A program made the translations under genes and the position numbers. DNA of 64,000 nucleotides from Helicobacteraceae bacterium (lineage in GTDB: Bacteria; Campylobacterota; Campylobacteria; Campylobacterales; Sulfurimonadaceae): positions 1-64,000 of the forward strand of contig WTBY01000074.1 of assembly GCA_013138865.1 (NCBI GenBank), read 5' to 3'. Shown piece by piece: positions 50,541 through 60,221 of this stretch; position 1 is the first letter of the stretch; every line of letters starts with the position of its first letter. The notes below the pieces were generated by a model, which was not told the origin of the DNA, searched no databases, and worked only from the letters and a program-made list of their open reading frames with translations.

Positions 50541-50582
50541 AAAGGTATTATACTATTTTTATTTATAAGTATTTTAAAACAT

Positions 50583-50805
50583 AGAAGTACATAAACTCTA
50601 GCACAACCTCTTTCATAATGTGACTTCGTAATTTTTTCAAAATTAGAAGTACATAAACTCTAGCACAACCTCTTTCATAAGGTGACTTCGTAATTTTTTC
50701 AAAATTAGAAGTACATAAACTCTAGCACAAGCCTTTTCGTAAGGTGACTTCATAATTTTTTCAAAATTAGAAGTACATAAACTCTAGCACAAGCCTTTGG
50801 CTTTG
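50583..50805. repeat. Three tandem 62-bp repeats plus a partial fourth
   Basis: This fills most of the 336-bp gap 50541-50876. Full copies are 50583-50644, 50645-50706 and 50707-50768, followed by a partial copy from 50769 that diverges into a hairpin. Each unit contains ACTTCGTAATTTT-TTC-AAAATTAGAAGT, a 12-bp stem with one bulged base. Related single copies occur at 52460-52505 and, inverted, at 53705-53738. Confidence 0.92.
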
Positions 50806-52457: not shown

Positions 52458-52459
52458 AA

Positions 52460-52505
52460 CTCTTTCATAAGGTGACTTCTTAATTTTTTACAAAATTAGA
52501 AGTAC
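52460..52505. repeat. Single copy of the pho-locus hairpin repeat after pit
   Basis: It starts 3 bp after the pit stop codon. ACTTCTTAATTTT-TTAC-AAAATTAGAAGT keeps the stem of the 62-bp unit with a different bulged base, and the flank CTCTTTCATAAGGTG is the same as in the tandem copies. Confidence 0.85.
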
Positions 52506-52555
52506 GCTTTAGTTACACAAAATATGCTTTACATATTTTGTGTAACTAAAGCGTA
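52503..52555. other. Perfect 24-bp inverted repeat before pstS
   Basis: Bases 52503-52526 and 52532-52555 are perfect inverted repeats with a 5-base loop. The right arm contains the first half of the pstS Pho-like box, so the left arm carries its mirror image. It may act as a terminator for pit, a regulatory cruciform, or both. Confidence 0.85.
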
Positions 52556-55298: not shown

Positions 55299-56470
55299 TG
55301 GCAAAAACAAAAAAAAACATATTTTACGATCCAAGTTTAAGCAAAAGACATTTTAAAGACAAAATATTTAAATACGCTACTGTTGCATCTTTAGCAATAT
55401 CTTTAATATTCTTAGTTATTTTTTTAAGTGACATGATTATAAAAGGTAGTTCCGCGATCAAGCAGAGTTACATTCAAGTAGAGGTAAGTTACTCTCAAAA
55501 GGCTCAAAAGAGTTATAGAAAAGCAGTTGAACGAAAGTATGTTAACCTCATAAGTCGTGCAGAGCTAAGGCAAGTTCCTATGCAGATGAAAAACAACGCA
55601 TCTCTTATGGGTACAAAAGAGTTAAAGTGGCTTATTGCCGATGACCAAGTAGATATGTATATGAAGGGTTACTACTATAAGTTAAAAAGTAAAGATCTAA
55701 AAACTTTAGAAGCTATGGTAGCTAATGGACGTATAGAGCAAAAGTTTAATACAGTATTTTTCACTCATGGTGACTCTAAGTCTCCAGAGTTTGCGGGAAT
55801 TCTCTCGGCTATGATAGGGACTATTTTTACCATTTTGGTAGCTATGGCAGTTGCTTTTCCTCTTGGTGTTGCAACCGCGATCTATCTTGAAGAGTTTTCA
55901 AAAGAGTCATGGTGGAGTGAGTTTTTAGAAGTAAATATTAACAATCTTGCGGCAATTCCATCTATTTTATTTGGACTTTTAGGACTTGCTATTTTTATAA
56001 ATCTCTTTGGACTTCCTCGTAGTTCAGCACTTGTGGGTGGTTTAACACTAGCGCTTATGACACTTCCGATCATAGTTGTAAGTTCACGTGCCGCACTTAG
56101 AAGTGTACCAAGTACGATCAGACAAGCGGGTTATGGCTTAGGGCTTACAAAAGTTCAAGTGGTTAAAGATCATGTTCTACCACTAGCCTTTCCAGGAATT
56201 ATGACCGGCACAATACTTGGTTTAGCACAAGCCATGGGAGAGACGGCTCCGCTTATTATAGTAGGTATGATCGCATTCATTCCCGACTCACCAACTACGA
56301 TCATGGACGCCGCAACAGTTATGCCAGCACAGATCTTTACATGGGCAGGAATGCCTGAGCGTGCTTACATAGAAAAGACAGCAGCAGGTATTTTAACTCT
56401 TTTAACTATTCTTATTTCACTTAATGCTTTTGCTATCTATCTGCGTAAGCGTTTTGAAGTTAAATGGTAA
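55298..56470 (+). CDS. pstA: Phosphate ABC transporter permease PstA
   Basis: 390 residues, about 100 longer than typical because the first helix (about 28-48) is followed by a periplasmic region of about 110 residues. The core has six helices and the EAA-loop STIRQAGYGLGLTKVQVVKDHVLP, plus QAMGETAPLIIVGM. Its 3' end overlaps the convergent CopZ-like gene by 34 bp. Confidence 0.94.
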   Translation: MAKTKKNIFYDPSLSKRHFKDKIFKYATVASLAISLIFLVIFLSDMIIKGSSAIKQSYIQVEVSYSQKAQKSYRKAVERKYVNLISRAELRQVPMQMKNNASLMGTKELKWLIADDQVDMYMKGYYYKLKSKDLKTLEAMVANGRIEQKFNTVFFTHGDSKSPEFAGILSAMIGTIFTILVAMAVAFPLGVATAIYLEEFSKESWWSEFLEVNINNLAAIPSILFGLLGLAIFINLFGLPRSSALVGGLTLALMTLPIIVVSSRAALRSVPSTIRQAGYGLGLTKVQVVKDHVLPLAFPGIMTGTILGLAQAMGETAPLIIVGMIAFIPDSPTTIMDAATVMPAQIFTWAGMPERAYIEKTAAGILTLLTILISLNAFAIYLRKRFEVKW

Positions 56471-56994
56471 CTATTTGGCTTAAGGCTAAATTTTACTTTA
56501 TTATTCTCATTAAAATTGATACCATACTCTGCTAAAAAACTTGTTATATCATCTGTACAACATGTGCCTTTAGGATTTGATTTTTCACAAAACGATTTTC
56601 CATCAGAAATTATAGCTTTAACTTTTTGAGCTATATTAAATTCATTATTTTCTATCATCCCAATGACACGCTCTTTTAATAATTTTCTACAGTAACATAA
56701 AGGAGTTTTTACATCATCATTTTTAACAGTAATTTTTGATTTAATATCTACTTGCACAAATGTTTCACTTCTATCATTAGAGTAATAAACTGTATCACAG
56801 CTAGGGTTAGAACAGAAGTTAAACTCATTAAGATCTAAATGCATACTTAATCGTTTCTCTTTTTTTAATTGTGCTTTTATTGTCACTGAATCAACATTAT
56901 TTCCATTTTGATTACAATGTGGACATGTAACGGCTACAGTTTCTTGTGTAGCACACCTACATGAGTTACTCTCTTGATTAGTTGTTGAAATCAT
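56437..56994 (-). CDS. Cysteine-rich CopZ N-terminal-like metal/Fe-S protein
   Basis: 185 residues with SCRC, CPHC, FNFCSNPSCDTVYYS, PLCYCRKLL and SFCEKSNPKGTCC. This order matches the N-terminal domain of archaeal-type CopZ (a zinc site plus a [2Fe-2S] cluster, followed by a BFD-like part). The heavy-metal-binding ferredoxin-fold domain of CopZ is absent. It is divergent from an ECF sigma gene that also ends in cysteines, with a palindrome between them, so metal-responsive control is plausible. Confidence 0.75.
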   Translation of the reverse strand: MISTTNQESNSCRCATQETVAVTCPHCNQNGNNVDSVTIKAQLKKEKRLSMHLDLNEFNFCSNPSCDTVYYSNDRSETFVQVDIKSKITVKNDDVKTPLCYCRKLLKERVIGMIENNEFNIAQKVKAIISDGKSFCEKSNPKGTCCTDDITSFLAEYGINFNENNKVKFSLKPNSYHLTSKRLRR

Positions 56995-57116: not shown

Positions 57117-57680
57117 ATGAATTTATCTGAAGAACAAGAGATAGAGCATCTTTACAAGAGCTTTAGAAAACCATTATTTCAATTTATTTCATATAAGGTA
57201 TCAGATGCACACCGTGCAGAAGAAATTCTTAACGACGTATTTTTTAAAGCCGCCTCTTCCATTGAAACATTAAGGGAAAAAACTAAAGTACAAAGTTGGT
57301 TATTTAAAATTGCCTCAAATCTAATAATTGACTACTACAGAAAAAGAAAAGAAAATTATGTTTATCTTAATGATGATATGCTCTTAAGTGAAGAAGTTGA
57401 TGGTGAAACGATTTATGATGAATTGAATTGTTGTATTGAAACATTTCTTTGTAAATTACCTAAACAATATTCTGAGTCACTTAAAGCTGTATATTTAGAT
57501 GAGCTTACTCAAAATGAGTACGCACAGAAAAAAAATATAAAACTCTCAACTGTTAAGTCTCAGATCAAAAGAGGTAAAGAGTCTATGAAAAGTTTTTTCG
57601 AAACTTGTTGCACCTTTGAAAAAGATAGATTAAATAATATGAGCAGTTGTACTTCTAATAGTGAAAATTGCATAAATTAG
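57117..57680 (+). CDS. ECF-type RNA polymerase sigma factor with cysteine-rich tail
   Basis: 187 residues. Region 2 (LYKSFRKPLFQFISYKVSDA, AEEILNDVFFKA, VQSWLFKIASNLIIDYYRKR) and region 4 (LPKQYSESLKAVYLDELTQN, STVKSQIKRGKESMKSFFE) are complete. The C-terminus adds TCCTFEKD and CTSNSENC, as in SigZ-like factors. No anti-sigma factor gene is adjacent, so the cysteines may sense metal or redox directly; that is inference. Confidence 0.85.
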   Translation: MNLSEEQEIEHLYKSFRKPLFQFISYKVSDAHRAEEILNDVFFKAASSIETLREKTKVQSWLFKIASNLIIDYYRKRKENYVYLNDDMLLSEEVDGETIYDELNCCIETFLCKLPKQYSESLKAVYLDELTQNEYAQKKNIKLSTVKSQIKRGKESMKSFFETCCTFEKDRLNNMSSCTSNSENCIN

Positions 57681-57754: not shown

Positions 57755-58282
57755 TTAGTTAGAGTTAACTGGTATTGTTATTTTAAACCCTATACCCCTA
57801 CTCTTTAATCCATCTATTATCTCTATAGAACCTTGATGCTTTTTTACAAAATTATGTGCATTATATAACCCAAGACCAGTACCTTTAAACACTTTTTTGT
57901 TATTGTGTGTATCATACTTTTCAAAAACTTTAGCTCTTTTATCTTTTGGAATACCTATACCATTAAATTTTATATTTTTAACTCTCATCTCATATTTGAA
58001 AGTTTTTACCATATCTATAAAGTAACTTTGAAGGTTTTCAACATTTGCTAATTCTAAATGCTCTTTTCCTGCCTCGTATTTTGCCATCACTAAAATACTT
58101 TCAACTAATTTCAAAATATTTTTTGAAGCTTTTCTGGCGATATTTATAGATTCATCTTTCTCTTTCTTAGTTAAATCGTCAAATGAGAGGTACTCAAGTG
58201 AGCACATAAGGGCAGTTAAAGGTGACTTCAAGTCATGTGTTACCATTGATAATATATCATTATATTCATGTTCTGTTTTCAT
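57755..58282 (-). pseudogene. Histidine kinase fragment with internal deletion
   Basis: It retains HisKA (MVTHDLKSPLTALMCSLEYL) and the end of the ATPase domain (NGIGIPKDKRAKVFEKY, GTGLGLYNAHNFV), but about 60 residues between KNIKF and NGIGI, including the N-box, are missing in frame. There is no sensor region either. ATP binding is unlikely, so I treat it as a pseudogene; a kinase-dead regulator is the alternative. Confidence 0.7.
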
Positions 58283-58352: not shown

Positions 58353-58370
58353 AATACCATTTAGTAACCG
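58353..58370 (+). promoter_or_regulatory. Weak Pho-like box before the 74-residue gene
   Basis: AATACCA-TTTA-GTAACCG. Only the second half is a good match, and the -10 (TTAATA, 8 bp on) is poor. Its position relative to the next gene is like the others. Confidence 0.4.
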
Positions 58371-58423: not shown

Positions 58424-58648
58424 ATGAAAAAAAGAGAATTTAAAATCCAAACTAATGAGTTTGAGACAGATTTTGCACATGAGCTAACTAATGAAACAAT
58501 CGAAGAGTATCTTTACGATGAACTAGAAGTTCCAACAGAGTGCATAGAGTCACTAAACTACTCTAACAACTACATACTCATCAAACTTTCAAAAGAGACA
58601 ACATACACAACAGACGACTGGTACGTAAACTTACAAAGAGTCTCTTAA
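58424..58648 (+). CDS. Small acidic protein of unknown function in the pst locus
   Basis: 74 residues starting MKKREFKIQTNEFETDFAHE, with no helix or signal and many acidic and Tyr residues (TIEEYLYDELEVPTECIESL). GGAG is 9 bp upstream of the ATG at 58424; an upstream ATG at 58373 would add a hydrophobic stretch but lacks a ribosome-binding site. It lies behind a weak Pho-like box. Confidence 0.65.
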   Translation: MKKREFKIQTNEFETDFAHELTNETIEEYLYDELEVPTECIESLNYSNNYILIKLSKETTYTTDDWYVNLQRVS

Positions 58649-58650
58649 TA

Positions 58651-58668
58651 GTAACTCTAAAGTAACCA
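58651..58668 (+). promoter_or_regulatory. Pho-like box before a 15-residue peptide gene
   Basis: GTAACTC-TAAA-GTAACCA, then 8 bp, then TAGTAT at 58677-58682. It begins 2 bp after the preceding stop codon. A short palindrome TGCTTTTAAAGCA (58693-58705) lies in the predicted leader. Confidence 0.65.
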
Positions 58669-58724
58669 TATTACAGTAGTATGAAGATGAGTTGCTTTTA
58701 AAGCACTCATAAGAAGGAGTTAGT

Positions 58725-58772
58725 ATGGCTAAAGCTGTAAAGAAAAAAGTAGTTGCTAAAAAAGTAGCTTAA
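58725..58772 (+). CDS. 15-residue lysine-rich peptide
   Basis: MAKAVKKKVVAKKVA, 6 Lys and 4 Ala in 15 residues, with a strong AAGGAG 6 bp upstream of the ATG and its own Pho-like promoter. It resembles the tails of histone H1-like proteins. It could be a real basic micropeptide, a leader peptide, or the truncated start of a longer gene. Its stop overlaps the end of the EAL pseudogene on the other strand. Confidence 0.5.
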   Translation: MAKAVKKKVVAKKVA

Positions 58773-59322
58773 TCACTACTCTCAATCAAAGTCTCTTTGG
58801 TTGGGCTATTCCGCTTAATTATGGATATTCCAACAGGCGTATGAATTAGTTTTGAAGCTTTTTTAACTTGTCCCAAAATTGTGTTAAAGTTCTCTTTGTT
58901 TGTACTCTTGTTAAACTCTACGATCGCGCTTGAAACTGCTAAAAGCTTAAACTCTCTTTTTATTTTAAAGCGATCAAGAGTCTGTATAAAACCATTTTGT
59001 TGATCCTCTTTTGAGTATAGCTCTTTTGCACTATTTTGAAAATCTTTTTGTATTTTACTAACTTTTTTATAAACATATTTGAAATATTTAATTCAGAGAA
59101 CTTTTTTATAGCTATGTAGCGAAGTTCAAGATCTAACTGATATAGAACACCATCACTATAAGCTTCATCAAAAAGGTTAAAAATGGAGTAAAATCCTCCA
59201 GCTTCAGTAACATTTCTTAACAATGCTTCTACTGCATATAAGTTTCCACTTTTAACATTTACTATAGGTTGAAAAGCAAAATCTAGCTTTGAAACTATTT
59301 TACTCCACTTTTTACTTAACAT
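58769..59322 (-). pseudogene. Decayed EAL/GGDEF-type signalling gene
   Basis: The first frame (59322 down) has an EAL start, FAFQPIVNVKSGNLYAVEAL, then QLDLELRYIAIKKFSELNI, and soon goes out of frame. Another frame (roughly 59035 to 58769) continues with DRFKIKREFKLLAVSSAIVE and LIHTPVGISIIKR, reminiscent of a GGDEF-domain end. The EAL catalytic core is missing. At least one frameshift and a deletion make it non-functional. Confidence 0.65.
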
Positions 59323-59391: not shown

Positions 59392-59409
59392 GAAACCATC
59401 TTGTAACCA
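59392..59409 (+). promoter_or_regulatory. Pho-like box of pstB-phoU
   Basis: GAAACCA-TCTT-GTAACCA, then 8 bp, then TACACT at 59418-59423. The 20-bp core is identical to that of pstC. Confidence 0.75.
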
Positions 59410-59453: not shown

Positions 59454-60221
59454 ATGGCAAGTAATAAAACTAAAATTAATGTAAAAGATCTCTCTCTTTA
59501 CTATGGAAGCAAACATGCACTTCATAAGTTGAATATAGAGCTTCACAAAAATAAAATAACCGCTCTTATAGGTCCATCTGGTTGTGGTAAATCAACATTT
59601 TTACGCTGTTTAAACCGTATGAATGACTTAATAGACTCAGTTAAAATAGAGGGTAAAGTTATTATAGATGGTAAAAATATTTACGATGCAGATGTAGACG
59701 AAGTAAGCGTAAGAAAACGTGTTGGTATGGTGTTTCAGCAACCAAACCCTTTTCCTAAGTCAATCTATGAAAATGTAGCCTATGCGCCACTTAAACATGG
59801 GATCGTAAAAAAAGGTAAGGAGTGTGATGAGTTAGTAGAAAAGTCACTTATAAATGCAGGTATTTGGGACGAAGTGAAAGATATACTAGCGGACCCTGGG
59901 ACTGGACTTAGTGGCGGACAACAGCAACGTCTTTGTATAGCAAGAACGATCGCGGTTAAACCTGACATAATTCTTATGGATGAGCCAACAAGTGCGCTAG
60001 ATCCTATAAGTACAGAGAAGATCGAGGCACTAATGTTAGAGCTAAAAAAAGAGTTTACGATCGTAACGGTTACACATAATATGCAACAAGCTGGACGTAT
60101 AGCAGATATGACAGCATTTTTTCATATGGGTGACATCATAGAGTATGGTGAAACTGAACAGATATTTTTAAATCCAAAAGAGAAAAAAACAGAAGATTAT
60201 ATAACAGGAAGGTTTGGTTAA
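59454..60221 (+). CDS. pstB: Phosphate ABC transporter ATPase PstB
   Basis: 255 residues with Walker A (GPSGCGKST, about 43-51), Q-loop ([16 protein letters not shown]), ABC signature ([17 protein letters not shown]), Walker B ([13 protein letters not shown]) and H-loop (VTHNM). It drives PstCA. It is separated from pstA by about 3 kb of other genes but has the same promoter box. Confidence 0.97.

Follow-up and report, generated by a model that had tools for sequence, protein, structure and literature searches.

In promoters of the Pho regulon, tandem 11-bp repeats (PhoB boxes) replace the -35 element and stand at a fixed spacing from the -10, and the half-site of PhoB in E. coli is TGTCA. 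AlgP of Pseudomonas aeruginosa is a histone H1-like protein of polyphosphate granules. Its Lys/Ala/Pro-rich tail, similar to the histone H1 tail, is required for the spacing of the granules; its repeat region has been reported as a mutational hot spot, and the protein has been studied under nitrogen starvation (PMC9239181). Here we examined a 15-codon ORF in a 64-kb stretch of DNA (hereafter the window) from a Helicobacteraceae bacterium. The original prediction regarded the ORF as a dedicated gene for a phosphate-controlled micropeptide. Our comparisons point instead to a shortened member of a Lys/Ala-rich, histone H1-like protein family, unnamed in Pfam and NCBIfam, which we define here as KA.

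Promoter, leader and surroundings of the ORF

The features of the locus are listed in Table 1. The sequence was read as MAKAVKKKVVAKKVA with the TAA codon at 58770-58772. The ORF had been claimed to possess a Pho-like box and a -10 of its own, and both were found. The same layout is present upstream of PiT (50818), pstS (52542), pstC (54316) and pstB (59392) in the window; the distance from the last GTAACC to the -10 is 9-10 nt across the five promoters, and that of the ORF is identical to those of pstS, pstC and pstB. A simple sigma-70 scan identified no -35/-10 pair at the ORF promoter. The tandem 11-bp box at a fixed distance from the -10 is thus what is found in Pho-regulon promoters, although the half-site at the ORF, pst and PiT promoters is GTAACC rather than the E. 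coli sequence, and the PhoB site here is putative.

Table 1. Features in and around the 15-codon ORF, with coordinates in the window
Feature	Position	Strand	Evidence
Conserved 74-aa protein, ending in DDWYVNLQRVS	58424..58648	+	Present in 53/228 family genomes
Pho-type box, half-sites GTAACT / GTAACC, 11-bp spacing (GTAACT-N5-GTAACC)	58651..58667	+	
-10 hexamer TAGTAT, 9 nt 3' of the Pho-type box, without -35 (activator-type promoter)	58677..58682	+	
Leader hairpin between promoter and ribosome-binding site	58687..58710	+	-9.3 kcal/mol, z -3.3
Shine-Dalgarno AAGGAG	58714..58719	+	Sequence; same or near-identical motif precedes most KA genes of relatives
15-codon ORF MAKAVKKKVVAKKVA*, probable shortened KA-family member	58725..58772	+	DNA homology and N-terminus
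Hairpin 3' of the ORF stop, 11 bp, 3-nt loop	58781..58805	+	z -4.1
EAL-GGDEF pseudogene, convergent, next to pstB	58769..59322	-	tblastn with L085 homologue; translation

With a Pho matrix constructed from the other five boxes, leaving out that of the ORF, the ORF box scored 13.1 bits and ranked only seventh in the window, and a stricter pattern covering the whole promoter was therefore chosen as a test. The pattern GTAAYY-N5-GTAACC-N7-12-TANNNT was matched at three sites of the 3.03-Mb genome (PiT, pstS and the 15-codon ORF) and at none with a reversed control, a count that is descriptive because the pattern was written after the ORF site had been seen. The likeness to the PiT and pst sites supports the phosphate control that had been proposed; judging from the promoter pattern, Pho control of the ORF is likely and its low-phosphate promoter looks genuine.

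The ribosome-binding site, which had been described as strong, lies 5 nt upstream of the ATG. On both strands of the window, AAGGAG-N4-9-ATG occurs only twice, and the second case opens a frame of 2 codons, leaving that of the ORF as the sole productive pair. Two hairpins that had been overlooked flank the ORF. The leader hairpin would fall at the inferred transcript 5' end or close to it. The hairpin downstream has no U-run on the + strand and lies within the 3' end of the opposing EAL-GGDEF pseudogene, and no canonical terminator was found there.

The EAL-GGDEF pseudogene, whose stop codon (58769-58771) overlaps that of the ORF, retains what corresponds to residues 4-79 and 506-584 in a homologue of 585 aa, the two segments lying in different frames. 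Residues 80-505 are gone, corresponding to a deletion of ~1.3 kb, indicating that deletions have occurred at the ORF locus. In L083 and L085, intact homologues are located close to pst/pho genes. The gene for the 74-aa protein on the other side has a weaker Pho-type box of its own at 58353; the protein displayed no match above cut-off to Pfam or NCBIfam, and members of its family often adjoin phoR, as in L074/L112 and L083/L113, where KA is a neighbour too. Between pstA and pstB, the pst cluster also harbours genes for a CopZ-like zinc-binding protein (56437-56994, -), an ECF-type sigma factor (57117-57680, +) and a short histidine kinase of 175 aa (57755-58282, -) with HisKA and HATPase but no sensor domain. 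Near-identical repeats, TTAGAAGTACATAAACTCTAGCACAACC...GGTGACTTCGTAATTTTTTC, occupy the intergenic region upstream of PiT (50545-50790), with a partial copy just downstream (52458-52520).

The KA family in Sulfurimonas and relatives

When the DNA of 60 relatives was searched, four genomes, all belonging to the same family, matched the stretch leading from the ribosome-binding site into the ORF (identity of 76-83% over the ribosome-binding site and start region, E 7e-6 to 2e-4). In every case the matched DNA opens a longer gene, 72-97 codons in length, such as MAKALKKKAVKKIVKKAAKKSTTKKAIKK.... A search with a degenerate version of the first eight codons hit 52 of 228 family genomes, a set with no second genome of the window's genus. 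The matches in L010 and L056 were false: L056 (208 aa) is response-regulator-like, and L010 (28 aa), along with L007 and L008, represents a match inside an unrelated gene. The N-terminus MAK(V/A)LKKK(A/V)V is carried by approximately 50 of the 228 genomes, from Sulfurimonas and relatives. The KA genes that were read (L003-L006 and L009-L059, apart from two places, of which one is the G009 gene that L003 already represents) encode Lys/Ala-rich proteins of 57-107 aa; only the window ORF (15 aa) and L034 (32 aa) are shorter. Searches of Pfam and NCBIfam with the full-length relatives yielded nothing above cut-off, a test limited by low-complexity filters, and literature searches found no description of the family.

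The ORF begins with MAKAVKKKVV, which fits the consensus MAK(V/A)(L/V)KKK(A/V)V; beyond these ten residues homology to KA is weak, the composition being of low complexity. With KA genes of Sulfurimonas and relatives it shares the MAK(V/A)xKKKxV start, a leader hairpin followed by a strong AAGGAG, and linkage to a Pho cluster, here together with a Pho-type promoter. What is absent is the lysine/alanine-rich body of the 57-107-aa proteins, as the frame is closed after 15 codons. The leader hairpin is a feature of the KA gene family: the mean folding z of KA leaders in relatives was -1.54 (n=47, not phylogenetically independent) versus -0.12 for 67 control leaders (p 3e-9).

A link of KA to phosphate genes was observed in several respects. 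Taking stretches of about 20 kb from 20 relatives, KA was located within 10 kb of pst/phoU/phoB/phoR in six (L096, L105, L107, L108, L112, L113). Tandem GTAACC-type boxes with 11-bp spacing were present no more than 250 bp upstream of KA in 9 of 48 relatives, while shuffled sequences gave a mean of 0.4 and a maximum of 2. In L083/L113 and L074/L112, KA adjoins a gene of the same family as the 74-aa protein encoded just ahead of the window ORF, and an EAL-GGDEF gene is found within a few kb, again as in the window. On the other hand, the KA genes of many other relatives have a TTGACA/TATAAT promoter and then a TTTATTACTATTAGTAATAAA-like palindrome, indicating that Pho control of KA is not universal. 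From these arrangements, the KA gene appears often to be part of the phosphate-starvation gene set in Sulfurimonas and relatives. In most KA genes of Sulfurimonas (L028-L030, L038, L043-L046 and others), the palindrome directly follows the -10, and it may be a repressor operator, a 5' hairpin of the mRNA, or both.

The nearest analogue of KA is AlgP. Full-length KA proteins share with AlgP a Lys/Ala-rich composition like that of the H1 tail and a link to phosphate physiology. Unlike the AlgP/PhaF type, KA sequences contain neither KPAA repeats nor the N-terminal helical domain, which in AlgP comprises 124 aa, and we therefore liken KA to AlgP by analogy and not as a member, there being no sequence homology shown between them. 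The composition and phosphate linkage suggest, by this analogy, that full-length KA binds polyphosphate and/or DNA. The proposal that the product binds polyphosphate or nucleic acid can thus be carried over to the full-length family, but not to a dedicated 15-residue gene.

Copy number and probable contraction in the genome of the window

A profile was built from 11 family members, and all seven control genomes carrying KA scored with it, including the one with the 32-aa form. In the genome of the window, the profile found no full-length KA; the sole match, at chance level, was a TonB-like ORF (L039), which is unrelated and was rejected as a paralogue. The protein search likewise found no full-length paralogue in this genome, and a scan with the start-codon pattern that tolerated three mismatches or fewer gave one perfect match, the 15-codon ORF itself.

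Among the phoR-adjacent KA genes, which are syntenic, that of L096 has 79 codons and that of L108 has 32, with the first 13 residues in common, and this difference is a precedent for shrinkage of KA. The 32-aa gene (L034/L108, G161) is located downstream of a tRNA and has no obvious Shine-Dalgarno sequence. Exact direct repeats of 10-23 bp, in frame, are numerous within full-length KA genes and are substrates for in-frame contraction.

Discussion

Taking into account that relatives carry a histone H1-like protein of 57-107 residues in place of the 15-residue peptide, the ORF is most likely a shortened remnant. We consider it probable, if short of certain, that it represents the sole KA gene of its genome, severely contracted and under Pho control with promoter and leader intact, and that its product is probably vestigial. 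The relatives had been checked for a longer intact gene of which the ORF could be a truncated remnant, and such genes were found, contrary to the claim of a dedicated micropeptide. A point against a remnant is that neutral decay need not preserve the promoter, leader, ribosome-binding site or in-frame stop, and each of them is intact.

This last point bears on the possibility that KA has been trimmed to its conserved N-terminus and still works at low phosphate as a minimal H1-like peptide, for example by binding polyphosphate, RNA or DNA. The Pho box, hairpin, AAGGAG and first ten codons are intact, and the genome has just two strict Pho promoters besides the one kept here. Nevertheless, long multivalent tails are normally needed for H1-like action, none of the other genomes among the 228 has a form this short, and the adjoining EAL-GGDEF gene is a deletion pseudogene, implying that the locus is decaying. 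We regard a functional peptide as unlikely, though less so than the other alternatives. That the gene is in reality full length, its repeats having been collapsed by the assembler, is improbable. The exact in-frame repeats of KA genes and the division of the genome into 82 contigs would be consistent with such an artefact, but the repeats do not reach the length of usual assembly k-mers, the ORF is well inside a 77.7-kb contig, and short forms do arise, as the 32-aa KA of a different genome shows.

We attach an equally low probability to a Pho-induced small or dual-function RNA of ~110 nt, composed of 5' hairpin, short ORF and 3' hairpin, in which the peptide would be secondary. Two stable hairpins do flank the ORF and the entire stretch folds better than shuffled sequences (z -2.5), but no Rfam family was found (the best match, E 0.6 and on the other strand, is at chance level), the 3' hairpin lacks a U-run and is internal to the opposing coding sequence, and the leader hairpin is accounted for as a feature of KA mRNAs. 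A leader-peptide attenuator was rejected because no gene lies directly downstream on the same strand; the next gene is convergent (59322-58769, -), and pstB at 59454 has a Pho-type promoter of its own at 59392. Finally, short ORFs are frequent in AT-rich DNA, but a chance ORF unrelated to any gene is effectively refuted by the homology of the start-region DNA in four genomes and the exact family N-terminus, and is also opposed by the presence of a strict Pho promoter and of an AAGGAG-ATG pair that is the window's only productive one.

For the contracted KA gene, we propose that at low phosphate, phosphorylated PhoB would bind the 11-bp repeats and bring RNA polymerase to the -10. A short, hairpin-capped mRNA would be made and translated into the 15 residues. 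The sequence signals suggest that low phosphate probably still elicits synthesis of this product, which is likely to be vestigial. The gene may have shrunk via in-frame deletion between the many internal AAAAAAGTnGCT-like repeats. The role envisaged for full-length KA in relatives is the coating or tethering of DNA and/or polyphosphate, in the manner of the AlgP tail.

The claim of a micropeptide is thereby replaced by one at the level of the family, that of an H1-like protein, KA, whose coupling to phosphate-starvation genes and to Pho-type boxes recurs in Sulfurimonas and relatives. The short form shows that repeat-rich genes can shrink with their promoter and leader intact. If KA binds polyphosphate or DNA, it would represent an AlgP-like system in Campylobacterota.
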